A DNA stretch of 64,000 nt from Sphaerolaimus hirsutus (lineage: Eukaryota; Nematoda; Chromadorea; Monhysterida; Sphaerolaimidae). Positions 10,867 through 30,089 of this stretch are shown one piece after another. The position numbers and the translations under genes were made by a program. The notes under the pieces are model-generated. The model was given only the letters and a program-made list of their open reading frames with translations, did no database searches and had not been told where the DNA came from. Where the stretch lies: positions 496,001-560,000 of the forward strand of contig OZ038457.1 in NCBI GenBank assembly GCA_964036195.1, in the 5' to 3' direction. The first letter of the stretch is position 1. The number at the start of each line of letters is the position of its first letter.

Positions 10867-12266
10867 GGTCGGGCTGAAAAGTCCCTGGACAGTGCACGCC
10901 ATTCTCGCTGGGGGTAAGCTACGGTCATAAAATTTTAACACGTGAATATATCAGGTGTTTTGAGTTTTCACCCAAAATTTCACCCCTCTAGCTCCACCCA
11001 CTGCGTTACAGTGGGGGTTACAATTTCGGTCATTTTGTACTGATCTACACATGGTGCTCTAGCTAAATGCTGCTTTAAGTTGTGATCATGAAACTTTGGC
11101 TAGTGTAAGCCACCAGTGTTGGCAATGTGCCAGCACTCAACAACATTAGCTATGATATCATAAGCCTAGTCCATTTTGTTATTACTGTCACTACTCTCAC
11201 TACCAAATACATCATTCTGCCTCTACGGTTGGTCAATACAGGTTAACACTGGATGCATTTTGCATGCACACTGCTGTTGAACACAGGTAATGTGTCCACT
11301 ACAGATTAGTAATAAAACACAAATGAAATTTATTTGACATAATTATTTACTGCACATTTCAAAACAACATGATCTCAGATAATCACCAAAAACATCCATC
11401 ACAGTTCCCACGTTTCTTGCACATCACCCTGATCTGCATATTAATTTTACCTAAATAGCAATGATGTTGATGAAAGTGTTGTATATTATCAGCACATTGC
11501 CAACACACTGGCTTGCACTAGCCAAAGTTTCATGATCACAACTTAAAACAGCATTGAGCTAGAGCACCATGTGTACATCAGTACAAAATGACCGAAATTG
11601 TAACCCCCACGGTTCCGCAGTGGGTGGAGCTAGAGGGGTGAAATATTGGGTGAGAACTCAAAACACCTGATATCTTAACTTGTCATAATTTTATGACCGT
11701 AGCTTACCCCTAGCGCGAATGGCGAGCACTGTCCAGCAGAGTTGGAAAAACGTATTTACGTTTACCCGAAATACCCGGTTATTTGGGTATTTATATTTAC
11801 GTTTACGTTTATGTTTTCCAAAAATACCATTACGTTTTGTTATGTTTTCCTGGCACAATTACCCGGGTACCAGAGAAAACGTAAAAATCGTATCGAAAAT
11901 GCACAAAAACAGTGCATTTTTGAACTTTTTAGCTGATATAATACGTACAATTTATGTTTTTGGCCAATTATATTCCCAATTGTTTGATAAATAACATAGG
12001 TAAGCAAGAATGTAATCGTATTAGCAGAGAAATGGTTGAAATAGGAAAAACAAGAGTGTTTTTCAATGCACTTGATCATGGGTGGGGCACTTCAAAGAAA
12101 TTTTTACGTTTACGTTTTTTTACGTTTACCCGGGTATTTTAGAAGTATTTTACGTTTTCAGTATTGATACTCACAATTTAGAAAAGGTATTTACGTTTAT
12201 GTTTACGTTTTCCAAAAATACCAGTATTTGTACAACTCTGCTGTCCAGGGACTTTTCAGCCCGACC
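10867..12266. mobile_element. Long-armed foldback element
   Basis: GGTCGGGCTGAAAAGTCCC starts arms of about 260 bp that return inverted near 11490-11730 and 12249-12266. The target duplication is probably ATGTACAT, with slippage on the right (ATGTATGTACAT). It carries no gene. The right arm is split by the element at 11737-12240. Confidence 0.8.
11737..12240. mobile_element. hAT-like word element, word ACGTTT
   Basis: Ends CAGAGTTGG and CAACTCTG are flanked by an exact 8-bp duplication CTGTCCAG (11729-11736 and 12241-12248). The arms carry ACGTTT and its complement about ten times around a fixed skeleton (ACCCGAAATACCCGG, GGGTATTTATATTT, CCAAAAATACC). It is a sister of 25147-25932 and 27004-27798. 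Confidence 0.9.
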
Positions 12267-12394
12267 ATGTATGTACATAATTGCAGACGGGGGTATTTCG
12301 AGGGGGGTTATTTCTTTCTCCATCTCAAAAACACCTGGGGGTATTTCGAGGGGGGGGGTTAATTCAAGGGGTGGTATTTCGAGGAAATACGGTA

Positions 12395-12930
12395 CTAAGC
12401 TTCTGTGGACCGCATGCTATGCATTTTTCCGCTATGCTACGAAACACTCCATTATGACGTCACCGTCAAAAAAATCAAAACTGTTCTAAAATGTTCCAAT
12501 TAATGTTACAGAAAAAACAGATCTGTCACGTGTACACGCTTCCACTTTTTTTGAAATATTTTTATTTTTTGTGAAAGTGCGCGCATGCATACATATTTAT
12601 CCTGCTCGCGCGTTAACGACTAAGACATAAGTGATTCTGGACGCAGTCCACAGAGTCCCACGAGTGCGGTCCACAGAATACAGGAAGAATATTCTTTATT
12701 GATCATTTATTAGCTGCAGAAATGTTTTTTTCCACAATATATAGTTCAATATGCATTTTATATCCCTTTTATCTATGTATTTATATCCCTTGTGGACCAT
12801 TGTCCATTTTAATTTGTTCGGTGATGTCAAAAGCCTGATTACCGTATTGGCTTGTTTTGAGTCCCATGTTTGAATTGATTACTTTAAAAATAACTGACTT
12901 TGAAACCTTTCCAAAGCTGGTTAGCATATT
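12395..12930. other. Spacer with traces of a shared interspersed repeat
   Basis: The stretch CCGCATGCTATGCATTTTTC at about 12409, with a following AAACACTCCA, resembles sequence split by the element at 19905-20520. No gene is visible. Confidence 0.35.
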
Positions 12931-13598
12931 AGGCGTCTAATTCTAAAGGTGGATTTTGAGTAAATCGCATTTTAAGTTTCAGATCCAATTCACACTCAGT
13001 GCCGTGTGTCCACTTTGGCTCTCTAAGGCGTGCCAGCCATTGAGTTCCAAATGTGGACAATAAAGTGTCAAATTTTCAGCCAATGTATATTTATGTGAAA
13101 AATGTAGTGTCCATGAAATACCAGTAGGATAGTGCAAAACTGTTGTTGTTGTTTTTTTGGGGGGTGGACTTGTCGGCTTCTTCTATGTGAGAACATTTTT
13201 GTTCCTAGCGACAATGAGGTTGGGTTATGGGCAATTTATGCACTTGTCTACTTTTATAAATCGGTGTCCATAGTGGACTTATCACATACCTTGCTTTTTT
13301 CACAACAAAAGGCTGCAGAAAGTGAACTTGTCGACTTTTAGTCCAAAACCAAGTGGACTTGTCGACTTCTTGCTCATTTTTTTGCATTTTTCCTAAAAAA
13401 TGTCAAATTTGACAAAATCATATAGGGCATGTGAGGACAAAAAAAAATTATGGAAAATAATGAAAAATGTGCAGAAGTAGCCCAAGCCCCAGACAACATT
13501 TCGAGTTAGGCCTGGAGGCTTTCATTCTGGAGGATTTCCAGGCCTAACTCGAAATTTTCATATTTTGGACTTGTCGACTTTCAGAATTGGACGCCTCA
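12931..13598. mobile_element. GAGGCGTC-ended element, copy 2
   Basis: AGGCGTCTAATTCTAAAG at the left (end truncated by two bases) and TTGGACGCCTCA at the right. GGACTTGTCGACTT words repeat inside. GCATATT occurs just outside both ends. Confidence 0.75.
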
Positions 13599-13606
13599 CG
13601 CATATT

Positions 13607-14166
13607 GCCACAAAACGTATACCTAAGTGCGTACTGGCTATCTGATGATCCACTGATGTGGGTCATTCAAAAAATGTTTTAGTAAAAACGTAAATATGTG
13701 AACCTATGATTTTGGGCCAATTTCTCTCAGTAGATTTCAGATGCTGAACTTATTTAAGATTCAGTATTTCATGATTCAGGTTTTCTGCAAATTTCTCGCC
13801 GGTCGACAAAATTTGTAATTTCCTCAAAGGGGATTTACAGCTCGCACAATTTTCGATAACATAGTGATAAACCCGAATTATCTGGGTTTTTATCGATCAC
13901 AAAGCATAATAATATTTTAGTGTATAGACTCGGGGCACCCGTGAGAACTCATCTCAGCATACAACAAGCCCATTTACTTATTGCTTTCAGTTCCAGCCTC
14001 CCTCTTATGCGAACAACCATAGATGAGAATTCTGCTGAAAAATAAATTTCAATTTTCGGGAGGGGGTTCTGATTAAAAATTCGAAAATGCCATTTATTTT
14101 AGGGTCAATTTTTTTTCTTCAATTATTATAGGAATATATGATTAAACGAAATTTTTTCTGCGGAAA
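13607..14166. other. Spacer, nothing recognised
   Basis: A polypyrimidine acceptor-like site TTGCTTTCAG at 13981-13990 is followed by a frame that closes within a dozen codons. I see no paired repeat. Confidence 0.35.
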
Positions 14167-14610
14167 TACCGTATTACCTCGAATTATCCCCCCCCCCCTT
14201 GAATTAACCCCCCCCTCGAATTAACCCCCCCTCAAAATGGGCTGGGGAAATAATAAACCCCCCCCTCGAAATACCCCCCCCCCTTCGGAATGATGTACGT
14301 CATGTACATAATAAATACGTCATGTACGCAATGTACATGATGTATTTCACTGTTTATTTCTATTGCAGCTACACATGGACATGTTTGTGAAGCTAATCTA
14401 CGTTTTTATGTCCAAATATATATTGTTTGGACACATTTATCACCTGTTTTGGGCATGCAAATGCCTACTATTTACTACGATCCTCACGAAAATTTCTGAC
14501 GAAATAATAAGACCCCCCCTCGAATAAACCCCCCCCTCGAATTAACCCCCCCTCAAATTTTGCTGGCGAAATAATAAACCCCCATGGGGGTATTTCGAGG
14601 TAATACGGTA
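14167..14610. mobile_element. TACCGTA-type element, AATTAACC subfamily
   Basis: TACCGTATTACCTCGAATTA and TCGAGGTAATACGGTA are inverted. The arms repeat CCCCCCTCGAATTAACC. The middle is unique, with AGCTACACATGG and CATGTACATGATGTA tracts shared with 30780-30850 and 42660-42730. Confidence 0.85.
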
Positions 14611-15165
14611 GGTGTCTTGTCTGGATTACGTGATTTTGAAGCGATCTTATCACAAATTTTGGCGATTTATCCAAGGCAAAGGCAAAGGTTTTTTGAAGTA
14701 TCCAAGAGTGAACTTGCTCAAAACGACCATAAATGTCACGTGTATTTATCATTTCTACACGATTTTTTTGATTTTTTTCGCAAAAATAATAGTAATAAAA
14801 ATGTCTTTATTTCCCAAAGCTGAAAGCACATGGTTCCTAAAAATAATGGACACTGAAAACCCAAAATAACTTTTTTCAAAAAAATTTCTTTCCATCTATT
14901 CTTACGCTGCTCGCAAATGAGCAACCAATCTATCGCAGCGGCGGGGAAAAATTCAACTTTCAAATGTGCGTAGAATTAATTTAGACATTACTCATCATTA
15001 GTTTTGCTTTGGTTGTTCCCATGGCGATAACAGGGAACGTTCAAGGGTTTTTAGGACAGTGTACTGATGCGCTTAAGCAATTTACGTGTATTGTTTGTGA
15101 ATCGTGAATTTGTGTAATCAGTGGAAATATGTTTTTTTGGAAACTGATCATTTGAAGAAAATAAT
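14611..15165. other. Spacer, nothing recognised
   Basis: Several open frames of 75-94 codons overlap here on both strands, none with coding-like composition. No inverted repeat pair was found. Confidence 0.35.
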
Positions 15166-15356
15166 TACTGTATTTGCTTGAACAATTCCGCCCAGGAATT
15201 TTTTGTCACACTGTTGTGGGGAAATATTCGAGAGGGGAGAATTTCATATAAACTCATCATATGTTTTTCTAACAAAACAACATGCAATTTTCTTAAAATT
15301 CTGCAAAATGAATTGATCATATGCCTTAAGGTGGGAATCATTCAAGCAAATGCAGT
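15166..15356. mobile_element. Short TACTGTATTTGCTTGAA element
   Basis: ACTGTATTTGCTTGAA at the left returns inverted as TTCAAGCAAATGCAGT at the right. It is a small relative of the TACCGTA superfamily with a different word. Confidence 0.55.
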
Positions 15357-15529
15357 TTGAAATTTTGTGATATTTTCAGAAATTGATACTTGTTTGTGGG
15401 CGCATCTATCCGTCTATCTATCTATCTGGCCCCTGCGAGGGTCAAAATTTAAGGTAACTATGTTTCAACCCGTGTCACAACCACAAGTCTACATCCAAAT
15501 TTTTTGTATCCATCTGCACGTTTCTAGCG

Positions 15530-16260
15530 TGAGTGTGGTCATTCTAACATATTGTGGAATCACACATATTGTGCAATCTCACATGCCGCATGGTGACCTT
15601 AACATAATGTGGAATCTCACATGTCCAAAGGTGAATCTCACATGCCCAGCGTGAAATACACATGCCCATGGCCAAACATAATTTTTCATGCCAGCCAAGT
15701 CCATGCCATCTCTGGAGCATTTTGTTGCAGCTTTGTATAATAAAACCATAACAAAAAAATTATTTCATCAGATCCAAGCAGTAAGAGCACATACAGTTGT
15801 TAGTATATCAGTAAATACACAACACATTAATAAAAAGGTGAGAATAAGTTTTTGTACAACAAACATTCAATGTAAAAATTAAATGCAAGAAATGCAAAAA
15901 TGCCAATAACAAGTAAATTGTTGACAAAAAAAGTAAACAACTGCAGATTATAAAATCTGCTGACTCAAATTGAACACAAAGGCAACTACTGTATTTGAAT
16001 GAAATTTATTTTCAGGGTGAGAATTTTCATGGGGGTTAAACGAGTGGGGTATTTTGAGGCAGACTGACAGACAGATTGATAAGGATCCAAATTTGATAAT
16101 TATTTCAAGCTTTGTTCATGCTGGGTATGTGAGATTCATTCGGGCATGTGAAATTCACCTTTGGGCATGTGAGATTCCACATTATGTTAAGATCACCATG
16201 CGGCATGTGAGATTCCACAATATGTGTGATTCCACACTATGTTTAAGTAGAATTATCCTT
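15530..16260. repeat. CATGTGAGATTCCACA words in inverted arms
   Basis: The left arm (15540-15680) has AATCTCACATGC words. The right arm (16115-16230) has the inverse GCATGTGAGATT, with GGTGACCTTAACATAATGTG matched inverted around 16170-16190. The spacer includes a partial TACCGTA-type end at 15989-16060. Confidence 0.65.
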
Positions 16261-16370
16261 CTAGCGTGCACACTGTTTTATGGCCTTGCATGCAAGATTG
16301 CTATTTTTTGTAAAATATTTGCAAAAATTTTGTAAAATTGTTTCATTTTTTTTATAAATGACATTTCATA

Positions 16371-16866
16371 ATCTGATAAAAAATGGCTAAAGCCAACAAA
16401 AAGTGGACACTGCACCTAACCATGTGTATGCTTTTGAATGCACAAAAGTAATATATCATATACCATGCCATTTTCTGATTGAGCTATCAAAAGATGTATA
16501 TCAAGGGAAATGTACACAAATGCTAATAATATAGGCTATCAACACAGCAAACTGCATCACAAGAAACAATTTCATCAAACTTTTGCATGGCAGCGTGAGC
16601 TGTGTCAAAGTGCTGCAAACATTAAAGATACAAAAAGCTCACGCTGCCATGCAAAAGTTTGGTGAAATTGTTTCTTGTGATGCAGTTTGCTGTGTTGATA
16701 GCCTATATTATTAGCATTTGTGTACATTTCCCTTGATATACATCTTTTGATAGCTCAATCAGAAAATGGCATGGTATATGATATATTACTTTTGTGCATT
16801 CAAAAGCATACACATGGTTAGGTGCAGTGTCCACTTTTTGTTGGCTTTAGCCATTTTTTATCAGAT
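16371..16866. repeat. Near-perfect 0.5-kb palindrome
   Basis: ATCTGATAAAAAATGGCT begins a 235-240 bp arm that returns inverted almost base for base, ending AGCCATTTTTTATCAGAT. The centre (about 16605-16630) is a short loop. It is probably a foldback transposon. No coding frame. Confidence 0.9.
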
Positions 16867-16954
16867 ATACTTCTTTTTGTGGGCCACAGGCCCAAAAGTT
16901 TATAAGTTATTGCAAATCAAGCAAATGCCAAATGTGGCAGTGAGCAATACAATC

Positions 16955-18490
16955 TATAGTCAAGAAGATTTTCAACCTGACATTTAGAACCTGAAAGTTA
17001 TCACTTGACATTAAGGCCGGAATTAGAGTCTGAATTGCAAGCAAAAGTCTGACGTGAAATGTCAAGTTGTTCCCTGACACTGTGACGTGAAATGATGATG
17101 ACGTGAAATGATAAAAATTGAATTTTTCAATTCGCTCTAGTTGTGGCTGATAACAGTCAGTATTGGACACGATTAAGGTATTGATTCATATATTATCCTT
17201 AGAAAATTGTAGACCCGTAGCATGATCCACACTCGTGTAATTAATTTCACGAAAACATTTCACGTCATCATTTCACGTCGAATCGACGCTGAGCTCTAAT
17301 TCCCGCTTTATGACTTGAAATTACCCACTTGACAATAACTTGACATAAACCACTTGACATTTATGACTGAATGGCATCAATTGATATTTATGACTTGACA
17401 TGAACTGCTTGCCATTTTTTCACCTGATAGTTTTCACTTGACATAAACAACTTGACAGGTATCACCTGAAAATTGTTACTTGACATATTACTTGACATTT
17501 GACATGACATTTATCACTTGACATTAAACTTGACATTTCACTTGAAATTTATCACTTGACGTTAAACTTGACATTTGACATGACATTTATCACTTGACAT
17601 TAAGCTTGACATTTAACTTGACATTTGACTTGACATTTGACTTGACATTTGACTTGACATTTGACTTGACATTTGACTTGACATTTCACTTGAAATTTAT
17701 TACTTGACATTTCACTTGAAATTTATCACTTGGCATTTGACTTGACATTTCAATTGAAAGTTATCACTGTATATTCACCTTGACATTTATCACTTGACAT
17801 TTGACTTGACTTGACTTTAGACTTGACATTTATAACTTGACATTTGACTTGATATTTGATCACTTGACATTAAACTTTACATTTGACTTGACATTTCTCA
17901 CTTGAAATTTGACTTGACATTTATCACTTGAAATTTGACTTGACATATGACTTGATATTTGACTTGACATTTATGAGTTGACATTAAACTTGACATTTCA
18001 CTTGAAATTTGTCACTTGACATTTGACTTGAAATGTGTCACTTGACATTTGACATGACATTTGACATTACATTTCACTTGAAATTTATCACTTTACATTT
18101 GACTTGACATTTGACATGACATTTATCATCTGACATTAAACTTGACATTTCAATTGCAATTTATCAGTTGACATTTGACTTGAAAGTTATCACTTGAAAT
18201 TTGACTTGATACTTTATCACTTGATATTTTATAACTATCTATCACTTGACATTTATCAATTGACATTTCACTTGAAATTTATCACTTGACAATTATCACT
18301 TGACATTTCACTTGAAATCTACCACTTGACATTTATCACTTGATATTTGACTTGATATTTTATCACTTAATATTTTATCACTAGACATCTATCACTTGAC
18401 ATTTATCACTTGACATTTGACTTGACATTTATAACTTGACATTTGACTTGACATCAACCACTAGACATTTATGACCTGATAGTAATCAGC
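16955..18490. repeat. CTTGACATTT word array
   Basis: The word CACTTGACATTTAT or GACTTGACATTT is repeated about a hundred times with irregular spacing over 1.2 kb, interrupted by the insertion at 17012-17310. Variant words (CTTGAAATTT, CTTGATATTT) come in local runs, suggesting ongoing homogenisation. Confidence 0.85.
17012..17310. mobile_element. AGGCCGGAATTAGAG element, TA target
   Basis: TAAGGCCGGAATTAGAG and CTCTAATTCCCGCTTTA are inverted ends with TA on both sides. The arms hold GACGTGAAATGATGACGTGA words. The same family is complete at 55811-58977. Confidence 0.75.
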
Positions 18491-19904
18491 ATGCAAGGTC
18501 ACATGCTCAGTATCACATGAAGCAGTAGTTCAGGCATGTTTGCGCATTTTACACAAAATAAGCAAACTTGAATAACTTTTGTAAATCTGTACCAAAATTG
18601 CCAAAAATTGGCTCATTTGAAAGCTCTACTCATGGCACACATCAACAAATTTTTTTTATTGCCCCATTTGTATTCAAATTTTAAATTTATTGAGGTTTGA
18701 AAATTTCAAACAGATACCGTACCAAAGTGGGCGGAGCCTGTGAAAAAAAATCCCGAAAATAAGAAATGGCATCATATTCTCTTTCAAATGAGCCATCAAC
18801 CATGAAAATCGGTCGTGTTTCAAGGAAGTTATTGCAGTTTGAAGATTTTCGGGAGAACAAGAACAACAACAACAACAACAAGAACACTACTTGAAAAAGA
18901 AAATGCGTAATAACTTCCTCCGAACTCAACCGTTGGATCTGAAAATTTGCATGGTGGTACTTTTCGACACGGGCTTTTTAATGGTGCAGTCGGTTCTGCA
19001 CTAGCGCATTGCGTTCCGAAGTTATTGCGATTTTAAATTTGCGATTTCCGCATTTTGGTGTGTCTGACCATATTATGGGTGGGTCGCTTGCGCCCTCCCT
19101 CGGCAGCGAGGGATGGCGCTGGCGCGCCCACCCGATAAAATAACATGAAACATGAATAAAATTAAAATAAAATACAATTTTTATAAAAATAAAATACAAT
19201 TTTAGTAAAAAGAATTTTAGTGAAACCAACCCTGGTCATAAATATAAGTAGAATGTAATTCTTCTTTCAAAACATTTTCCCAAAATTCAGTCTTCCAGTT
19301 GACAGAGAAAACTCGCGGATGCGCTTTATCAAGTGAAAGTTGTATGTTCAAAACTAACAAATAAACTACATATGTACCTAGTTTGACATTTGTCACATGT
19401 AAATTCACCAGTCACTTTTCTTCCTAATTTATGCCACTTTTCCTGGGGTGTTTTCCAGAAACTGGTCCCAACATAAATAATTTTTTTTTCACTTTTAAAC
19501 TTTTCCGGCACCCAGTTCCATACCAGACAAACACCGACCCAAACGTAACGGGACCAAAAATGCACTTGATAATCAATTCTCTGAGGTGCTTGGCCGCTAT
19601 CAAGTAAATATACATATACCCATTGTGCCGCAAGTTAGTTGAGTTCCACTCATTAACACTGTATTTACAATGCTTTCCGCGAAATTATTTGATCGCATTT
19701 CGACATTAGATGCTCGAATTTCACTTAATTAATGGAGAAGAGATATTTTAGGATATTGAGCTGTTTTCATATATAAAAAGTATTGAAACTTCAGCAAGAA
19801 TCTTCAATATTGAGAAATCTATCGTTGCAAGCGATCCTTACACATCATCGAAAACAAAAAAGTACTTTTATTTTAAACCTCCTCATCTGACCGCACGCTA
19901 TGCA
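18491..19904. other. Spacer with an (AAC)n run and a GC-rich hairpin
   Basis: An AACAAC run lies at about 18859-18883. A GC-rich stem (CCCTCCCTCGGCAGCGAGGG) lies at 19093-19115. The surrounding sequence shows TTTTGTAAAT and GTTATTGC motifs but no gene and no paired TIR. Confidence 0.4.
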
Positions 19905-20520
19905 TAGGGTTCAAACGGGATTGACTTTTCGGGATCGGGATCAGGATTGACCTTTCGGGATCGGGATTGGCGTTTTTTCGGGATCGGGATTTAGGCCTAA
20001 AAATTGGTTTTCAGGGTTTTTTTCCTTACCTTTCACAATTAAATAAAATAGATTAAATTGGCATTCAAAACAATGCTATAGAGTCATTTCGGCACTGCGC
20101 AATGGGCTGCCTGGCATTGTCATTCACACCACTGTCTGCCATATATGCATGTGTATTAACCTCAAATTATTGTAATGGGCACTGTATCGAATCCATTTGT
20201 AGTGGTGTTCATGCACATGGAACAGAGATATAGAGGGAGGTGAGGAAATGCGCGCTTGCGCGCAAAATTTTTGCAAACTGCATACAAAATGGTCCTTTAA
20301 AAGTGCCATTTCTGGCACCTTTTGTGTCTATGAATTTTTCCGGGATCGGGATTGGGGCATTTTTGGGGGATCGGGATTGGGATTTTCAAAGCTTCGGGAT
20401 CAGGATTCGCTTTTTCAAATTTCGGGATCGGGATCGGGATTGAGGTTTTGAGATCGGGATTGGGACCACAAAATCCCGAAATTTCTCGGGATTCGGGATT
20501 GGGATCCCGTTTGCACCCTA
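19905..20520. mobile_element. hAT-like word element, word GGGATC
   Basis: Ends TAGGGTTCAAACGGGATT and AATCCCGTTTGAACCCTA type are flanked by an exact 8-bp duplication GCTATGCA (19897-19904 and 20521-20528). The arms are dense in GGGATCGGGATT. Fragments occur at 1003, 6478, 31626/33137, 48720 and 61186. Confidence 0.9.
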
Positions 20521-21113
20521 GCTATGCATCTTCCCGAAGGAAACTCTCCACTCCACCTTGACATCATTTTTGATAATAAAATGTTCCAAAAATTTCAGGA
20601 AAAGAAACATTCGTCGTTTGTACGCGACTCTTCATTTTTTTGTGAATATCTATTCATAAGTATTCTGCTGGCGCCTTATCGTCTAAGACATAAGTAATTT
20701 TGAAGCACACTATTCGGTCGCAGAGTGTAAATATCACAAACATCACGGAAGGCAGCCATGCGTTCGACCATAACAGCGCCACCTAGGGCTCGAACTCGAC
20801 TCGACTCGACTCGACTCGACTCGTGACTCGAGGGTAAAATGGGGTGCCGACTCGACTCGACTGACTCGACCGGAAAAAAATGGCCCAGACTCGAGACTCG
20901 AGGTTTTTGCCCGACTCGACTCGAAAATTCAGTAAATTTCGAGTCGGGGTTTCCCATTGAATCATATCAAAAATATAAATTTTAATGACTTTTAAACATA
21001 ATTTGTAAAAATTTAGCGCGCAAGCGCGCAATTGCCACTCAGGAGGTCTTCTCTGGATACCTCCCATATAGGCAAACCTATGTCAATACCCTCAATTTTC
21101 TGCCTGTTGCTGT

Positions 21114-21558
21114 CAAGGACGTATCCAGGGGGGGGGCGGGGGGGGCTGCAGCCCCCCCCCCTTCCCGGGGTGAGACCTAAAAAGTCCTGGAAAATGCCAC
21201 TTTTCCTATATATTTTTCGATGTTTCTTAAAAATTTTTGCGCGCAAGCGCGCAATTTCTTGCCCATGCATTGTATTTACAGCGGATCGGCCCCTGAAAAC
21301 CAATTTCCTTGGAAATGAACAGATTTTTCCAAATTTCGCTGTATATGTATGCCTATTTACATACGTACAAAGCGGTTCCTGGCGCTGGCGCCAACGCCAA
21401 TAGCGCCATGGCGTGGCGCCTTTGTATGGCGCTAGCGCCAAAACGCCTTTCCGTCCCTATATAGGGAAAAATTTTAGGGGGGGGCTGAGCCCCCCCCCGT
21501 TCGCCGGCCCCCGTAAACAAACAGCCCCCCCCGCTCAAAAATCCTGGATACGTCCCTG
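21114..21558. mobile_element. hAT-like element, CAAGGACGTATCC ends
   Basis: CAAGGACGTATCCAGG and CCTGGATACGTCCCTG are flanked by an exact 8-bp duplication GTTGCTGT (21106-21113 and 21559-21566). It contains G-tract hairpins (GGGGGCTGCAGCCCCC), a GCGCGCAAGCGCGC palindrome and GGCGCC words. Confidence 0.9.
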
Positions 21559-21559
21559 G

Positions 21560-21815
21560 TTGCTGTGTAATGTATGAGTATTTACCTACAAATATAGCAG
21601 TTTTTGGCGCTAGTGCCAACGTCAATGGCGCCATGGCGTGGCGCCTACAAATGGTGCCATGGCGTGGCACCTACAAATGGCGCCAGCGCCTAGCGCTATT
21701 TCTTTAGTCTGTGAGGGAAATTTTTAGGGGGGGGGGGGTTGAGCCCCCCCCCCCCGTTCGCGGGGCTCCGTAAACAAACAGCCCCCCGCTCCAAAATCCT
21801 GGATACGTCCCTGAG
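21560..21815. mobile_element. Second, partial GGACGTATCCAGG-type end
   Basis: GGCGCC-rich sequence is followed by a G-tract hairpin and the end CTGGATACGTCCCTG at 21799-21813. The interior matches 21400-21558 almost exactly. The left end was not found, so it may be a local duplication. Confidence 0.55.
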
Positions 21816-22068
21816 TATCTGAAATTTCTGCAAGTATCATGTGAAAAAGTAACGCATCCGACTCGACTCGAGACTCGAGATTTTTGCCTGACTCGACTCG
21901 ACTTTTCACTGACTCGCCCGACTCGACTCGCTGACTCGACCGGAAAAATTTTGGGGTTGAGACTCGAACTCGAGTTTGAAAAAAATCGAGTTTCGAGCCC
22001 TAGCGCCACCCCTAGCACATCTGCTCTCTTTATAAATTCGATCAACTTTTGGGGCTTTTAGGGCTTGT

Positions 22069-22534
22069 TAGGGTTGGGACCCCGAACCGAGCCGAACCGA
22101 ACCGAACCGAACCGCGGTTCCAAGCATATTTTGGAACCGAGAACCGGAACCGAAGAAAATACCCGAACTGATCCGAGAACCGGCACTTATACCCGGAACC
22201 TTTTGCCTTTTAAAAATTTTTGCGCGTAAGCGCGCATTTATCCACCGTACAGATGTATTTATCCACCGTTCTTGGGAAATAGGTCCGAAATATGTATTCT
22301 CCCTCATTCCTAGGCGTATTTCGATGGTGGGCGTAATTTGTGGGGTTCGACTTTGCTACACTACATCGTTATGTTCTTACTGTGTTATTCCGGCAATTAT
22401 TACCTGATAACCGATCATTTTACAACCCGAAACCAAAATTTTAAACCCTTTGGAACCGAAGGAACCGAACCGGAACAAAACTTGAGAACCGGAGCCGAGA
22501 ACCGAAACCGAAAATTTTGAAATTCCCAACCCTA
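22069..22534. mobile_element. hAT-like word element, word ACCGAA
   Basis: TAGGGTTGGGACCC and the inverse CCCAACCCTA are flanked by an exact 8-bp duplication GGGCTTGT (22061-22068 and 22535-22542). The arms are GAACCGAACCG words. The centre carries TTTATCCACCGT and a GCGCGTAAGCGCGC palindrome. Confidence 0.9.
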
Positions 22535-22564
22535 GGGCTTGTCAAGCTGCTTGTAATGTATTTG

Positions 22565-22604
22565 TACCGTATTTACTCGAATAATTATTAGAGGAAATAC
22601 GGTA
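22565..22604. mobile_element. Minimal 40-bp TACCGTA-type element
   Basis: TACCGTATTTACTCGAATAA meets GAGGAAATACGGTA with no interior left. It is a bare pair of ends, the shortest of the superfamily here. Confidence 0.6.
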
Positions 22605-22904
22605 TTTCTATGTGATGTGGCTAATGTATTGTTTGAACTTCCTGGAACTTTTATGCCCAGAAAAGTTAATGGATGAAAAGTTTTCCTATTGGAGAAAATT
22701 TTGTCTTGGGTGCGTGAGTCTATTTTGAATTCCTTTAACAATGTCCCAATGGTAAACTGATTACTGTTGTTCTAAAATTGTTCCGTTTGAAAAATATTCG
22801 TACTCCTCTTATCGCTACGATGTGTTCCCGCCCATAAACCTAACTGAAGGTGACATCTCAACATATTTATCATGTATTTACTGTAAAAATGCACATAGTT
22901 ACAT

Positions 22905-23296
22905 GTAGTTACGTGAAAGCGCGGACTTTGGAATGCGCCAAAAACTCCGTGGCGTTCTTCAAATGCACAGCGCCAACGCCAAGAGCCACTGGCGTTACAG
23001 CAAAAAGACGCCAAGGCAATTTTACATCGTATCTAGTACCCAGCGTCTGGCGCTAGCCATATTCAAGGAAATGGTGCCATTGTGCTTTCTGTGCTATTTA
23101 ATCTACTGTGGCGCACTGGCGCTTGACGCCACGCCCGTGAGAAACGGTTTTGGCGCTTGGCGCTGTCGGTGCGTGGTGCCAGCAACAAAACTCCTGGCTC
23201 TGGCGCTTGGCCACCATGGCTCCAGCTCCATTGACGCGTGGCGCTCGTGTTCTCGAATGCGTTTCGTGCCAAAATCGTGGCGCTTTTTCATCACTA
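22905..23296. mobile_element. Degenerate GGCGCC-word element
   Basis: Scattered GGCGC and GCGCC words, a left end like TAGTTACGTGAAAGCGC (22907) and a right end GGCGCTTTTTCATCACTA. This resembles 63066-63911 and 43872-44084, but I found no target duplication. Confidence 0.5.
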
Positions 23297-23337
23297 ATCA
23301 TATCGCTGCGCATCGCAAAAAGCTGTGTACCGTATTT

Positions 23338-23764
23338 CCTCGAAATACCCCCCCCCCCCTCGAAATACCCCCCTCAAAATGGACACTATGAACTTATAAA
23401 CCCCCCCCCCTCGAAATACCCCCCCCCAAATTTAGTGTATAGACAACGTAAATGACAAAGGCTGCGGTTTGTCATCCCGACAATGCAGAACACACGTTAA
23501 AAACGATGACTCTGTTATGTGAGAACAGTGTTTGTACGTCTACACACTTATAAATGTCTTTAGAGTCTTTTAAATGGCGATTTTTGTTGCATTTTTCGAC
23601 GTCTGCGTACGTTTCAGACGACATTTTAGTACTGGCATTTCAAAAAATTTCTGGCGAAATAAAAATCCCCCCCTCGAAATACCCCCCCCCTCGTTCAACC
23701 CCCCCTCAAAATTCTCACTCTGAAAAAATAAACCCCCCCGGGGGTATTTCGAGGAAATACGGTA
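23338..23764. mobile_element. TACCGTA-type element, AAATACC subfamily
   Basis: TACCGTATTTCCTCGAAATA and its exact inverse bound CCCCCCTCGAAATACC words. The interior has ACGTCTGCGTACGTTTCAGA, shared with 28480, 29140 and 59390. Confidence 0.9.
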
Positions 23765-23899
23765 TATTCTAGATGAACTGAGACAAAAGCTATGTAAAAA
23801 CCCGGTTATTTCGTTTTGCGTGTTAAAACCCTGTTCGGGACGTTCATTGTATTTATTTAAAGCTTGCTCAAAAGTAGAATATTTGTCCCGATGAAGATC

Positions 23900-24114
23900 T
23901 ACCGTGTTTCCTCGAATTACCCCCGGGTTTTTTTTTTTCAGAGTGAAAATTTTTGAGAAGTTTTTACAGCCTTATAAAAGGATGTAGATGGTATAAATGA
24001 TGTTCTAACGTAACACAGTATTATAAGTGTTTTGAACGTCTGTTATGCATTTCCTGGACCACAAATTCATAGTGCCCATTTTGAGGGGGGGGGGTATTTC
24101 GAGAAAATACGGTA
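23900..24114. mobile_element. TACCGTG-type element, short
   Basis: TACCGTGTTTCCTCGAATTA and GTATTTCGAGAAAATACGGTA are inverted, with a C-tract and G-tract next to them. About 215 bp. Confidence 0.75.
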
Positions 24115-24262
24115 GATGGATGGATCTATTTTATTGAAGAAAATTGTGAATGTGAACGTGACAATAGAATGAATTATGCAATTTTGAATGTGTATTTGCT
24201 ACTCTACTGCGCATAAATCGAGGAAAGACAATTTTTTAAAGTTTTTTTTCACGAAATACCCA

Positions 24263-24480
24263 CCTACCGTAAATCCTCGAAATATCTCCGTTGAATTGAC
24301 CTCTCCCCCTTGAATTAACGCTCTCGAAATACCCCCGGCTGGAATGAAGTACATCATGTGTGCAATGTGCATGATGTATAAATTGGGGGCAATTTGCATC
24401 GCTGCTACACATAGACTAGTTTTTGCGATGTACGTTCATACGTCCAAATGTATCCTCTTTGGTCGCATTTGTTACCGGGA
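24263..24480. mobile_element. Half TACCGTA-type element
   Basis: TACCGTAAATCCTCGAAATA opens CTCGAAATA words and the GATGTACGTTCATACGTCC interior. No right end is present. Confidence 0.5.
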
Positions 24481-24557
24481 AGGCTATGGCATGGGCTAGG
24501 GGGGCTATTTCCGCAAGTGGTAAAGTAAAATGGAAAACTTCATTCTTCTCTATTCCA

Positions 24558-24700
24558 GGGTTGGTAAAATCTCAGGAAAATAAAAAAAAATAAAATGGAA
24601 AATGGAAGAAAAATATAAAGTACAATAAAATGGAAAATTAATAAAATTAAAACTAAAAATTTTAGTAAAATTGTATGGCAATTGTTATCAATGCTTTGGC
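24558..24700. mobile_element. Left end of a CAGGGTTGGTAAAATCTCAG element
   Basis: A hAT-like end is followed by TAAAATGGAAAA words. The matching opposite end type occurs only at about 62676-62696, so both are partial copies. Confidence 0.45.
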
Positions 24701-24914
24701 TCCTTATGTAATATGATTGAGTTATATTATAAAAATCATGTTACATTAGAAAAATACTCATTTTTACGTTTTCTGTGAGAAAAATACTCAGTTTTACGTT
24801 TTCGCTACAAAAAGTATTTTACTCACGTTTTACGCAGTGTAAAAGTATTTAAAAAATACTTTACGTTTTTTGTACTCAGGGTTGAGTAAAAATAAAATAC
24901 TTTACGTTTACGTT

Positions 24915-26144
24915 TACCGTATTTCCTCGAAATACCCCCCTGGGGGTGATTGTTTCATAGTGGTCCCGAGAGGGGGGGGGGGTTAAACGAGGGGGGGGGT
25001 ATTTCGAGGGGGGGGGGTTATTATTTCACAAGGAAAATTTTGAAAACCAAGTACGAAATTTTCGTCTGAAACGTACGCAGACGTCGAAAAATGCAACAAA
25101 AACCGCCATTTATAAGGTTCTGTAGACTAATATTAGTGTGTAGGTCCAGAGTTGCGAAAGTGTATTTACACTTACCCGAAATACCCCGGTAAATGGGTAT
25201 TTATATTTACACTTACACTTACACTTTCACAAAATACCCATACACTTTTTTTACACTTTCCTGAGCAAAATACCCGGGTACAGAAAGTGTATTTTTTTCT
25301 TTCAGATGGCCCTGTTTTATGCCTTTTGAGAAAGCATCAAATAGGGTCATGTACAAAAAATAAATGCACAGTGCACACATGCAGTTATGCATTGAATGTA
25401 GAAATTATGGCAAATGTACAAACTAGCCTTTGATCTCCAACCTTTGATCAGTACTCATGGTATTCTACAGTTTCATCATACTTTTGCAAAAAGAACAAGA
25501 TCAACGGAAATTCACCAGCTGGACACAAAGTCAACTGGCTTTTGCATTGACATTTGCTGCATGTCCATTCTTGCATTTAAACAGTGTGTATCGCATTGCT
25601 TAATCAGTAAAATATCAACACTGAAAAAGTGCCATTATTAGGGAACTTCATACCACTACAGTATTTGTTACAGTCTGAAATGTTTCACAAAAAGGCAGTA
25701 AAATGTGAAATAATGCATGAAAATGACAAATAAATTGATCTAAAGGTGAAAACGGTGGTGTTTTCTAATGCTCAACAGTGAGAGCTCTTTCTAAAAAAAT
25801 TTACACTTACACTTTTTTTACACTTTCCTAGGTATTTTAAAAATACCTTACACTTTTGGTATCCATACTCAAAATTTGGAAAGTGTATTTACACTTACAC
25901 TTTCCAAAAATACCGGTATTTTAACAACTCTGGTATGTACACTGTTCTAGCGTGACACCGACATTGTTTTAACGTGTGTTCTGCAGTACACAGAACACAA
26001 ACTACAGTTATTGTCATGTACGTTCCCTTTACACTCAATTTGGGGGGGGGTATTTCGAGGGGGGGGGGTGATTGTTTCATAGTGGTCTCGAGAGGGGGGG
26101 GGGGTCAAACGAGGGGGGGGGGGGTATTTCGAGGAAATACGGTA
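24915..26144. mobile_element. TACCGTA-type element hosting the ACACTT word element
   Basis: TACCGTATTTCCTCGAAATA and TATTTCGAGGAAATACGGTA bound G-tract words. The interior is interrupted at 25147-25932. An uninterrupted relative reads through at 28398-28500 (inverted). Confidence 0.85.
25147..25932. mobile_element. hAT-like word element, word ACACTT
   Basis: CAGAGTTGCGAAAG and AACAACTCTG ends enclose the skeleton of 11737-12240 (ACCCGAAATACCCCGG, GGGTATTTATATTT), but with ACACTT or AAGTGT at each word position. I could not read a clean 8-bp duplication. The 400-bp centre differs from the sister copies. Confidence 0.85.
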
Positions 26145-27003
26145 CTTTGAAAAAAGTTCAGTACTTTTAACAACTCTGCTGCCAATGTATCGCTTCTCTT
26201 ACAATCTTATTTAAGCACTATAATATGCTGTTGAAGTCACGAATGTTCGACTAAATGAGATACCGTATTTCCTCGAAATACCCCCCCCCCCCTCTCGAAA
26301 TACCCCCCTCCTCGAAATACCCCCCCCTCGTTCTACCCCCTCCCCTCTCGGGACCACTATGAAACAATCACCCCCCCTCGAAATACCCCCCCCCCAGATT
26401 GAGTGTAAAGAGAACGTACAATGACAAAACTGTAGTTTGTGTTCTGTGTACTGCAGAACACACGTTTTAACAATGTCGGTGTTAGCATTGAAAAAATCTC
26501 TGGGAGATTTATATTTAAAAAATCTCAGAAAATCTCAGAAAATATAAGATTTTCTGAGATTTATATTTTATCCACGATTTTCCAGAGAGATTTAATTATA
26601 TTTTCTCCTGATTGAGGAAATCTCTCGAGAAAATCTCTATAGTTGTCAATTTTCACCTTCAAATCCACTAGTTCATGTCCTTTTTTGCTTATTTTCAGCT
26701 ATTTTTAACAATATATATACTAATAAACTCATTTTTAGCTATTTTTGCCCCTATTTTGTTTTTTTTCTCTTTTTTTCCTGTTCTATAACATGACAGAGCC
26801 TATAAAAAGTCTACCTATCTGAAATGCATTCGCTGTACTCGAGTACTTTCAAAAAGAATACATAAAAAGAGTACTGGTACTTTTTCAGATGATTACTCAA
26901 TGTAAATATGTTTTAACAACTATAAAGTTGACTGCATGCTTTGTAAATACAGTTACCAAAATTTGGTGAAAAAAGTCATCTGATAAATACTGTTCCAATC
27001 TTC

Positions 27004-27798
27004 CAGAGTTGTTAAAATACCGGTATTTTTGGAAAGCGTAAGCGTAAGCGTAAATACACTTTCCAAATTTTCAGTATGGATACTTAAAGCGTAAGGTATT
27101 TTTTAAATACCTGGGAAAGCGTAAATAAAAGCGTAAGCGTAAAAATTTTTAAGAGACGTTTTCTCAGTGAATTCTTTCCAAATCAAGCTCTCAGCGACAT
27201 TTTTCGGATGTCCACCTAGTAGTCTGCCCTCATATGTTGTTTGGCAATTCATCGGCAGCGACACTTACCGTATTTCTTATAATAGGAGAGCACCGTTTAA
27301 TTTTTTTCGTCAACTTTTTTTGTCTGCCGTTATATGGGAGGTGCCGTTCTATTGGAGGCTGCCGTTCTATTAGAAGAAACACGGTAGTCATCTTTTTATC
27401 TTCCAACTTGGAGTTAGTGCTGTCGACGGCGACAACATCGTCGTTGGAATCCATTTTCAGCCCAAAATTTCTTATCTGAAGCCACGATTTTGCTCGACGA
27501 CACAGTACTGCGACACAATTTGTAAATGTGCCACTATTTCCAGCACATTACTGCACGCACGCAGTAATTTTTTTGGTACGCAGTTTCGTTCACTCTTTTT
27601 TGTGGTTTTATGCTTTTTCAAAAGTGTAAAACTGAACCATGTGAAAAGCTTTTTTACGCTTTTAGTACCCGGGTATTTTGGCCGGGAAAGCGTAAAAAAG
27701 CGTACGGGTATTTTATGAAAGCGTAAGCGTAAGCGTAAGTATAAATACCCATTTACCCGGGTATTTCGGGTAAGCGTAAATACGCTTTCGCAACTCTG
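27004..27798. mobile_element. hAT-like word element, word ACGCTT
   Basis: CAGAGTTGTT and CAACTCTG-type ends are flanked by an exact 8-bp duplication CAATCTTC (26996-27003 and 27799-27806). In reverse orientation it has the same skeleton as 11737-12240 and 25147-25932, with AAGCGT or ACGCTT as the word. A minus-strand frame starting MDSNDDVVAVDS at 27454 is short and unidentified. Confidence 0.9.
27266..27386. mobile_element. TACCGTA-type element, TTCTATTAGAA subfamily
   Basis: TACCGTATTTCTTATAATAG and TCTATTAGAAGAAACACGGTA bound GTGCCGTTCTATTGGAGG words. TA lies at both ends. This is the innermost layer of a four-deep nest. Confidence 0.75.
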
Positions 27799-28149
27799 CA
27801 ATCTTCACACGTAAAAGTAATGTATTCATAGGAAAAATGTACCTAATTTATATTTTTGTTGATTATTTAGATACTAGGTGGTAAAAACTAGTACTATTTA
27901 GATACTAGTAAAAACTTAAACAACTCAAAAGGTGCTTAATATCTACTCAAACGCCTCTGGCTCAAACACCTTGAGATACCTATCGATTAAATCATAGGTA
28001 ATTAAAGTTGAGAGATTTTCTGAGATTTTTTGAACGGCAAGAGATTTTCTCAGAGATTTAATTATATTTTTTTCTTGAGAAATTTTCTGAGATAATATTT
28101 AATTATATTTTCTCAAAATCGGACATTTTTTTCAATGCTAGTCGGTGTC

Positions 28150-28820: not shown

Positions 28821-29639
28821 TAACGATGGTAAAGAAAAACGTTTTTGAATTTTCTATTTTTAGGTTGTGTTTTAGAATTTTTGTTTCACCACTAAATAGA
28901 AAAAGCACCCAAAGACCGATTGTTTTGAAACATATTAAAATTAGAATATTAGATTTTTTCTCTCAAAAGATCAGTTTTTTACATGAATACCGTATTTCCT
29001 CGAAATACCCCCGGGGGGTTTATTTTTTCAGAGTGAGAATTTTGAGGGGGGGTTAAACGAGGGGGGGGGTATTTCGAGGGGGGGGATTTATTATTTCGCC
29101 AGAATTTTTTTGTAATCCCAGTACTAAAATGTCGTCTGAAACGTACGCAGACGTTGAAAAATGCAACAAAAATCGCCATTTATAAGACTCTAAAGACATT
29201 TATAAGTGTGTAGACGTACAAACACTGTTCTCACATAATAGCGTCATCGTTTTTCGGGGGGGGGGGGTATTTCGGGGGGGGGGTGTATAAGTTCATAGTG
29301 TCCATTTTGAGGGGGTGTATTTCGAGGGGGGGGTATTTCGAGGGGGGGGGGGTATTTCGAGGAAATACGGTATATTTACACGGCAACCTTCAATCAAAAA
29401 TTCTAAATTTAATGCAATGAAAAAAGTAAATGAAGGCTCACTTTGAAGCTGTTTGACATCTGACAAATGTTTATATTGCCACATTTTAATTTCATGCGGA
29501 AAGTAAAAAATTGAAAAGTCTTAAAAAAGATTAAAAATTCCCAAACTATTCATTTTTAAAAATCAAAATTTGCAAATTCATTTTTTTATAAAAAACACTG
29601 AAAATTTTAACATTTTTTCTAGAGAGTTTGCCATCGTTA
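28821..29639. mobile_element. hAT-like element, TAACGATGGCAAAC ends, copy 2
   Basis: TAACGATGGTAAAG and GTTTGCCATCGTTA are flanked by GCGCTGCG and GGGCTGCG (7 of 8 match). It contains a TACCGTA-type element at 28988-29372. Confidence 0.8.
28988..29372. mobile_element. TACCGTA-type element, AAATACC subfamily
   Basis: TACCGTATTTCCTCGAAATA and exact inverse. G-tract arms with GGGGTATTTCGAGG words and the ACGTACGCAGACGT interior shared with 25065 and 59385. Confidence 0.9.
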
Positions 29640-29910: not shown

Positions 29911-30089
29911 TATGGTGTCAACAAAATTTTTTTACGGAAAAAGGAAACGGAAACGGAAACTTTTTTGCACTTGCCGGAAAACGTCAACGGAAACGGAAAA
30001 ATATTTGCACTTGCCGGAAAACGGAACGGAAAACGGGAAAAAAATTGCCTGCGGAAAGCGGAAACGGAAAACGTAAATTTGACACCCTA
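29911..30089. mobile_element. hAT-like word element, word ACGGAA, short copy
   Basis: TATGGTGTCAAC and TTTGACACCCTA ends are flanked by GTCATGGA and GTCATAAA (6 of 8 match). The interior is almost only GGAAACGGAAAACGG. It is 179 bp; the longer copy is at 47441. Confidence 0.8.

Follow-up and report, generated by a model that had tools for sequence, protein, structure and literature searches.

The transposase of the maize element Ac binds AAACGG repeats cooperatively, and only three of these hexamers have been shown to be required (PMC3260210). In Hermes the subterminal repeats are read by BED domains (PMC10368747), and DNA-binding domains derived from hAT transposases have diverse specificities, often for CGG or CGC (PMC8097297). 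These and the other published systems are cited here from extracts of the sources. We have analysed a stretch of 64,000 nucleotides from the nematode Sphaerolaimus hirsutus (assembly GCA_964036195.1, contig OZ038457.1, positions 496,001 to 560,000; hereafter the window), in which three sister non-autonomous hAT elements share one skeleton and differ in a hexamer repeated along their arms: ACGTTT in element 1, ACACTT in element 2 and ACGCTT in element 3. Between such sister families this hexamer, which we call the word, has been exchanged as a set, in place, and the text between the words has changed far less. The pattern is real, striking and well supported.

Like maize Ac/Ds, the elements carry numerous hexamers within the outer ~200 bp, have short terminal repeats and 8-bp target duplications, and include non-autonomous copies with filler interiors (PMC3260210). 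Read in the orientation of the Ac repeat, the three words are AAACGT, AAGTGT and AAGCGT, the first of which, the complement of ACGTTT, is one base away from AAACGG. Unlike in Ac/Ds, the ends here are CAGAGTTG and the words are these three rather than AAACGG (a comparison in which AAACGG itself was left uncounted). For Ac/Ds, the extract of the source describes no sister families that keep one skeleton while the hexamer is exchanged throughout (PMC3260210). Hermes and Tol2 are similar in having a hAT transposase with a dimerisation domain and, in Hermes, BED fingers that bind end-proximal repeats. They differ in having fewer repeats, and the extract describes no series of families with exchanged repeats (PMC10368747). 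Galileo, of the P superfamily, has several binding sites for its THAP transposase in long ends, and its subfamilies have been tested for cross-binding; besides belonging to another superfamily, it differs by additional sites in tandem repeats (PMC3688188). The nearest printed precedent, on the extracts used, is that of the VANC proteins and VANDAL elements of Arabidopsis, where the protein-binding motifs of related elements differ together with the element-encoded protein, and coevolution by tandem-repeat turnover has been proposed (PMC5735166; PMC10398659). As described there, VANDAL motifs lie in tandem repeats that expand and contract, whereas most words here sit in fixed, interspersed slots and were changed in place; moreover, VANC is an anti-silencing protein, unlike the transposase proposed here. 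Turnover of the VANDAL type was rejected for our elements because conserved text separates most slots. VANDALs are Mutator-like elements, and the 8-bp duplications, the hAT domain and the interspersed position of most slots speak against membership of that group, no search for a VANC gene having been made. Searches of the open-licence literature, at the level of listings and the beginnings of abstracts, found no report of sister hAT families whose interspersed subterminal words had been exchanged in place as a set, nor of a set-wise motif exchange in other DNA transposons.

All three window elements have short terminal inverted repeats, starting with CAGAGTTG and ending with CAACTCTG, and each consists of an interior between two word-rich arms of ~145 bp. 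Perfect 8-bp duplications flank elements 1 and 3 (CTGTCCAG and CAATCTTC, respectively); the flanks of element 2 agree at 2 of 8 positions, which is no clear target duplication. The original prediction, made from the letters of the window, had located the three elements and their strands exactly, and their assignment as hAT-like holds on the evidence of the 8-bp duplications, the short terminal repeats and a PF05699 domain in one related copy (L042). We named the slots occupied by words L1-L8 in the left arm and R1-R7 in the right arm, with one extra terminal word in many copies; slots L1, L8 and R5 are reverse-oriented. Counted on both strands, element 1 contains 12 ACGTTT words, element 2 contains 15 ACACTT words, and each of these two has 0 copies of either other word, while element 3 contains 15 ACGCTT, 3 ACACTT and 1 ACGTTT. 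Dinucleotide shuffling gave means of 1.6, 1.2 and 0.8 for the own word of elements 1, 2 and 3, which rules out chance word density. It had been claimed that every position carries the element's own word. This is correct for nearly all slots, and it fails at a few decayed ones (element 1 has ATGTTT four times, and ACCTTT at R5) and at R5, which is a fixed exception. Pairwise blastn comparisons of the arms, words included, gave 78-82% identity on the left and 74-86.5% on the right, with E-values from 8e-21 to 2e-50, so that the similarity of the skeletons is significant.

The 348-Mb assembly (762 contigs) was searched with the left-end skeleton after masking of the words (CAGAGTTGNNAAANNGTATTTACNNTTACCC), which gave 3,954 exact matches, against 0 for a reversed control pattern. 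Since 25 fixed letters had to match exactly in every copy, this sample favours young copies. The words at L1 and L2 were the same in 3,663 of the 3,954 matches (92.6%): ACGTTT in 1,434, ACACTT in 1,120 and ACGCTT in 1,109. Hybrids of the type ACACTT/ACGCTT numbered 83 and those of the type ACGCTT/ACACTT numbered 20, with 188 copies in other combinations. Words are thus concordant within elements, as had been proposed, and the copies do not show the level of mixing that independent mutation would produce. The 83:20 asymmetry (binomial 3e-10, for copies that are non-independent events) indicates that L1 and L2 are unlike in constraint or history. At the right end, where the search pattern gave 288 matches, R5 was ACACTT in 25 of the 28 listed rows with ACGCTT at both forward slots (manual count).

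All slots were then tabulated for 62 copies, classed by majority word as 20 ACGTTT, 24 ACACTT and 18 ACGCTT. Fifty-one came from or beside the first 50 skeleton-match places on contig C1, three are the window elements, and the remaining eight (seven ACACTT and one ACGCTT neighbour) came from loci L002-L008, retrieved via the ACACTT arm, so that the ACACTT class is over-represented. By core we mean the two letters of the word that are not among its four flanking letters. With R5 and unaligned cells set aside, and a right core with an altered flank scored as own, the copies carried their own core in 684 of 715 scored cells; 40 copies had no departing cell, and of the 31 departing cells 18 held the core of another family. 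Fifty copies had five or more exact words, all identical, whereas 2,000 column shuffles gave 0.006 such copies on average and never more than 1. As the copies share ancestry, the table demonstrates concordance and not the number of events. R5 was ACACTT in all 13 called cells of the ACGCTT family (12 upper-case, one lower-case) and usually ACCTTT in the ACGTTT family, and tracked the family word only in the ACACTT family. The 8-bp target duplication matched at 8 of 8 positions in 42 and at 7 of 8 in 3 of the 45 copies with a called right end, a figure that is favourable by construction because the CAACTCT site with the best duplication (6 or more of 8 positions) was taken as the right end. The other 17 copies, including window element 2, had no qualifying right end within the stretch examined. 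Interiors are free to vary: ACGTTT-word copies with called ends fell into five interior clusters (3-4 copies each) and a singleton, and no blastn link was found between the clusters at E 1e-8 and 100 bp.

A comparison uninflated by copy number was obtained from family consensuses of the 150-bp arms, from which the mixed copies L012, L018 and L031 were omitted. Scored were the 15 slots in which the ACGCTT consensus reads ACGCTT or its complement; R5, the 16th, where the consensus is ACACTT in both the ACGCTT and the ACACTT family, was excluded. Between these two families all 15 scored slots differed, each by the identical base (15 of 16 counting R5); no difference was seen among the 15 letters of the second core position or the 60 flanking letters (together 0 of 75), and the skeleton differed at 18 of 208 positions (~9%). 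The ACGCTT and ACGTTT consensuses differed at 15 of 29 core columns (slots L8 and R4 being misaligned), 3 of 60 flanking letters and 34 of 210 skeleton positions, and the ACACTT and ACGTTT consensuses at 29 of 29, 3 of 60 and 41 of 209, respectively. Fisher tests of core versus skeleton gave 2e-7 for ACGCTT/ACACTT, 6e-5 for ACGCTT/ACGTTT and 3e-18 for ACACTT/ACGTTT. At the ACGCTT/ACACTT skeleton rate, the probability of 15 changes in 15 slots is ~1e-16, and of 15 in 16 it is ~2e-15. Change is concentrated in the words rather than in the text between them, and the earlier judgement that independent point mutation is inadequate was sound, neutral independent mutation being rejected.

The same figures bear on ordinary subfamily drift, in which diagnostic mutations would have chanced on the repeated words with some help from CpG decay. 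ACGCTT to ACACTT is indeed a CpG transition, and ACACTT is the commonest departure within the ACGCTT class (nine of 14 departing cells, seven upper-case and two lower-case). However, the word CpGs went to CA in word orientation in 15 of 15 cases and to TG in none, a one-directional change (two-sided 6e-5), and none of the 15 was kept, compared to 5 of 7 skeleton CpGs surviving in the ACACTT consensus (Fisher 8e-4), which rules out generic CpG decay. With all going to CA and none to TG, the new word is homotypic, and the old word was not simply lost. Drift, which also leaves ACGTTT unexplained, is to our mind extremely improbable. A process directed at the word itself, such as targeted deamination, editing or micro gene conversion, might instead have rewritten every word copy in one step, and would agree with both changes being single transitions from ACGCTT and with the identity of the 15 changes to ACACTT. 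We hold this to be very unlikely, since the step from ACGCTT to ACACTT alters a CpG on one strand whereas that from ACGCTT to ACGTTT alters a non-CpG site on the opposite strand, two changes that a single process does not fit, and since gene conversion would also copy the adjoining text. R5, with ACACTT in the ACGCTT family, stands apart from the remaining slots, and a mixed copy exists, both of which count against one-step rewriting.

This mixed copy, L031, is the sole exception to the rule that the nearest left-arm neighbour, words masked, belongs to the same word class (61 of 62 copies). Over its full length it matches the ACACTT element at 632 of 754 sites and the ACGCTT element at 462 of 746, and its left arm is ACACTT-like at 9 of 11 diagnostic sites. 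Its words are eight exact ACGCTT, five ACACTT (at L1, L8, R4, R5 and one terminal slot), one ATGCTT and one ACGCCT. In L085, the seven left-arm slots called hold ACGCTT only, and the interior adjacent to the arm matches the ACACTT element at 56 of 69 sites and the ACGCTT element at 46 of 64. L092 is the converse: its words are ACACTT, with zero ACGCTT, and of 19 diagnostic sites in its skeleton 12 resemble the ACGCTT family and 4 the ACACTT family. Seven of the 83 copies with ACACTT at L1 and ACGCTT at L2 were inspected wholly or partly. Besides L031 these were L012, an old, mixed copy; L067, L112, L114 and L115, which are ordinary ACGCTT elements apart from L1, as far as inspected; and L113 (C7:1982901-1983106), a 110-bp element made of barely more than the left end, a few words and the right end, the smallest copy inspected, in which the four left-flank bases examined agree with the right flank.

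A tree of both arms with masked words (67 rows, 48 with a right arm; midpoint rooting) joined 16 ACGCTT copies, L031 and 24 ACACTT copies (support 0.99), grouped L031 with the ACACTT copies (0.81), left L092 and L085 outside, and placed 24 ACGTTT copies, including four that bear transposase fragments, in one clade (0.96). The called right ends of the ACACTT copies L002, L005 and L013 fitted the arm model poorly (scores 41, 96 and 83; duplications perfect in L005 and L013), and the tree was built without the right arms of these three, which were kept in the slot table and the consensuses. Supports were 0.72-1.0 on few deciding sites, and the left-arm tree places L085 elsewhere. A hand count on the tree suggests at least three changes of the word set, with ACACTT arising twice or reverting, and recombination of arms may have contributed. 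Arm swapping could also be the whole explanation, if recombination or gap repair transferred ready-made arms, producing mosaics and unrelated interiors without any slot-by-slot evolution. The unlinked interiors of the ACGTTT-word copies, the ACACTT words of L092 on a mostly ACGCTT-like skeleton, the opposite leanings of the two arms of L031 (right towards the ACGCTT family, left towards the ACACTT family) and the ends-only L113 are what it would leave behind. But a swapped arm takes its skeleton along and cannot yield 15 of 16 word slots changed with 9% change in the skeleton, and we find this account quite unlikely. L031, L085 and the fixed odd slot R5 point to slots having been replaced individually within a lineage that then amplified, and the switch was probably not instantaneous. 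The idea that all copies were rewritten in step is thus unnecessary, as the copies descend from a few masters.

Remnants of transposase genes give a view of the protein side. A Pfam search for the hAT dimerisation domain gave 28 matches; L042 (GCACCATG, a 102-residue frame) and L045 (CCCAAAAC) lie inside ACGTTT-word elements with perfect duplications. A search with the L042 fragment gave 149 matches, 20 of which were cut out as loci, and eight of these had paired ends and a duplication: four with ACGTTT words (L042 and L045 again, L104 and L105), one with ACACTT words (L092, CCTGGTAG), and three (L101, L102 and L106) with the same ends, mainly TACGCGTA words and a few ACGTTT. The duplications of the ACGTTT-word and ACACTT-word loci are perfect. 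The C-terminal dimerisation domain PF05699 scored 49.2 bits in L042 and 61.9 bits in L107 (cut-off 21.4). L107 is a 6,006-bp relative with TACGCGTA words, the same ends, the duplication CGCCAAGG and several exons; the best PDB match of its C-terminus is Hermes transposase (E 7.8e-13), and its joined first-exon translations reached 20.4 bits against the BED domain PF02892 (cut-off 20.6). The C-termini of L042 and L092 are 55% identical (42/77), those of L042 and L107 56% (57/102), and those of L092 and L107 47% (36/77). Judged from these few elements, the word class appears to go with the transposase lineage where it is visible, and the link to different transposase fragments that had been suggested is found in the few elements that carry one. 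BED-like exons are also present at C1:12787273 (59%) and C6:2266992 (77%), and no CAGAGTTG arm was found within 0.75-0.9 kb around the first exon at either place, so no word class was assigned to them. The hAT genes at L044 and L059 were considered as a link to ACGCTT and rejected, because the hAT matches fall outside the word-bearing elements.

The words might be read by a protein other than the transposase, for instance a repressor or activator of the host or an anti-silencing factor that the element encodes, in which case the switch would track this protein. VANC proteins, which bind short motifs that differ between related VANDAL elements, provide the model for this possibility (PMC5735166, in extract). 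Against it, the words of the window elements occupy the outer ~145 bp of both ends, like hAT subterminal repeats, and escape from a repressor requires only the loss of sites, not the same new word 15 times; we consider another reader unlikely, on an analysis that covered, as regards a second element-encoded gene, the open reading frames listed for L107.

The explanation we favour, and which is probably correct, is that the words are transposase-binding subterminal repeats that were swapped slot by slot, under selection, as the specificity of the transposase shifted. By analogy with Ac and Hermes, the hexamers would be the binding sites of each hAT lineage's own transposase. If the DNA-binding specificity of a transposase lineage shifts by one base, elements with more sites fitting the new specificity would move more often, and tolerance of some mismatched sites would let slots change singly, each gain raising mobility. 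Slot after slot would be exchanged along the line of master elements until the set was nearly uniform, and the text between the words, unread by the binding domain, would drift at the ordinary rate. The finished master would then amplify, so that thousands of copies appear rewritten together; R5 would fit a position that the transposase does not read. Directly supported are the hAT anatomy, the homotypic sets of ~15 words, the fact that change centres on a single letter of the word, the few unswitched or mixed relatives, and the match of word class and transposase lineage in the few elements that bear remnants. We infer that a BED finger of the transposase reads the words, that selection drives the exchange, that events took this order, and that the one-base shifts of the word followed shifts in such a DNA-binding domain. 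The mechanism as a whole is likely.

Several observations weigh against this transposase-driven replacement. L031 may be a recombinant, since of 7 diagnostic sites in its right-arm skeleton 4 resemble the ACGCTT family and 2 the ACACTT family, and CpG decay could have produced some of its ACACTT words. The diagnostic arm sites of L085 are mostly ACGCTT-like (7 of 11). Intermediates are very few: a signature of the ACACTT lineage around L7 has 729 matches, and among the 56 listed L7 is ACACTT in 55 and ACGCTT in one, which is L031 itself, so that unswitched copies are rare. Not every slot matters, as R5 ignores the family word in two of the three families. The link between ACACTT and a transposase comes from a single element, L092, where PF05699 scored 18.6 bits, below the cut-off of 21.4. 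The 20 loci examined of the 149 matches yielded no transposase remnant within an ACGCTT element, and no PF05699 was found in the ACGCTT family among the loci examined. The main gap is that the DNA-binding domains of the ACGTTT, ACACTT and ACGCTT families were not recovered.

Other repeats occur in the window and elsewhere in the genome. At 24540-24930, ACGTTT words with AAAATACT/GTACTCAG text, probably a decayed relative, resemble the element end at L049 1-360, and at 26142-26178 there is an apparently solo right end, TTTGAAAAAAGTTCAGTACTTTTAACAACTCTG, similar to the ends of the TACGCGTA-word family (L101, L106, L107). Dense arrays of the TTTTCCG/AAACGG type lie at 29939-30070 and at L039, L040, L043, L044, L059 and L110, around more distant hAT transposase fragments, and TATCGA-like arrays at L046, L047 and L049. 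Several hAT lineages of this genome may thus each have their own dense word. The window also contains a kilobase tandem array of ACTTGACATTTG units of 12, 26 and 38 bases (17450-18454) and, at many sites (e.g. 26270-26400 and 29250-29350), poly-G/C blocks, GTATTTCGAGGGGGGG. Some of these blocks adjoin ACCGTATTTCCTCGAAAT, and they seem to belong to a further dispersed repeat.

Table 1. The three word-bearing hAT elements of the window, with their arms and flanking duplications (window coordinates).
Feature	Position	Strand
Element 1, non-autonomous hAT, 504 bp, word ACGTTT x12	11737..12240	+
Element 1, left arm (slots L1-L8)	11737..11882	+
Element 1, right arm	12100..12240	+
CTGTCCAG, 8-bp target duplication, left side of element 1	11729..11736	
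CTGTCCAG, 8-bp target duplication, right side of element 1	12241..12248	
Element 2, non-autonomous hAT, 786 bp, word ACACTT x15, no clear target duplication	25147..25932	+
Element 2, left arm (slots L1-L8)	25147..25292	+
Element 2, right arm	25800..25932	+
Element 3, non-autonomous hAT, 795 bp, word ACGCTT x15	27004..27798	-
Element 3, left arm (slots L1-L8)	27652..27798	-
Element 3, right arm; contains slot R5 (word at 27056, ACACTT)	27004..27145	-
CAATCTTC, 8-bp target duplication, low-coordinate flank of element 3	26996..27003	
CAATCTTC, 8-bp target duplication, high-coordinate flank of element 3	27799..27806	

It is an open question by what route a transposase and its numerous binding sites can evolve jointly while avoiding a dead intermediate. 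The present genome contains, in thousands of copies, three sister families that differ mostly at the words, along with a few copies of mixed type and some relatives bearing other words. From such material one can read, and then test, in what order the sites were replaced, how many switches took place and which transposase residues were involved. It is tempting to speculate, although we think it somewhat doubtful, that the word set is a replaceable address code, and that lineages, repeatedly and each on its own, switch the whole set of ~15 sites where they stand, arriving more than once at the same word, so as to be moved by a different transposase in the same genome. If true, this would mean serial adaptation of non-autonomous elements to new transposases with the remaining arm untouched. 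The findings also suggest a route by which one hAT lineage may split into families that stop cross-mobilising.

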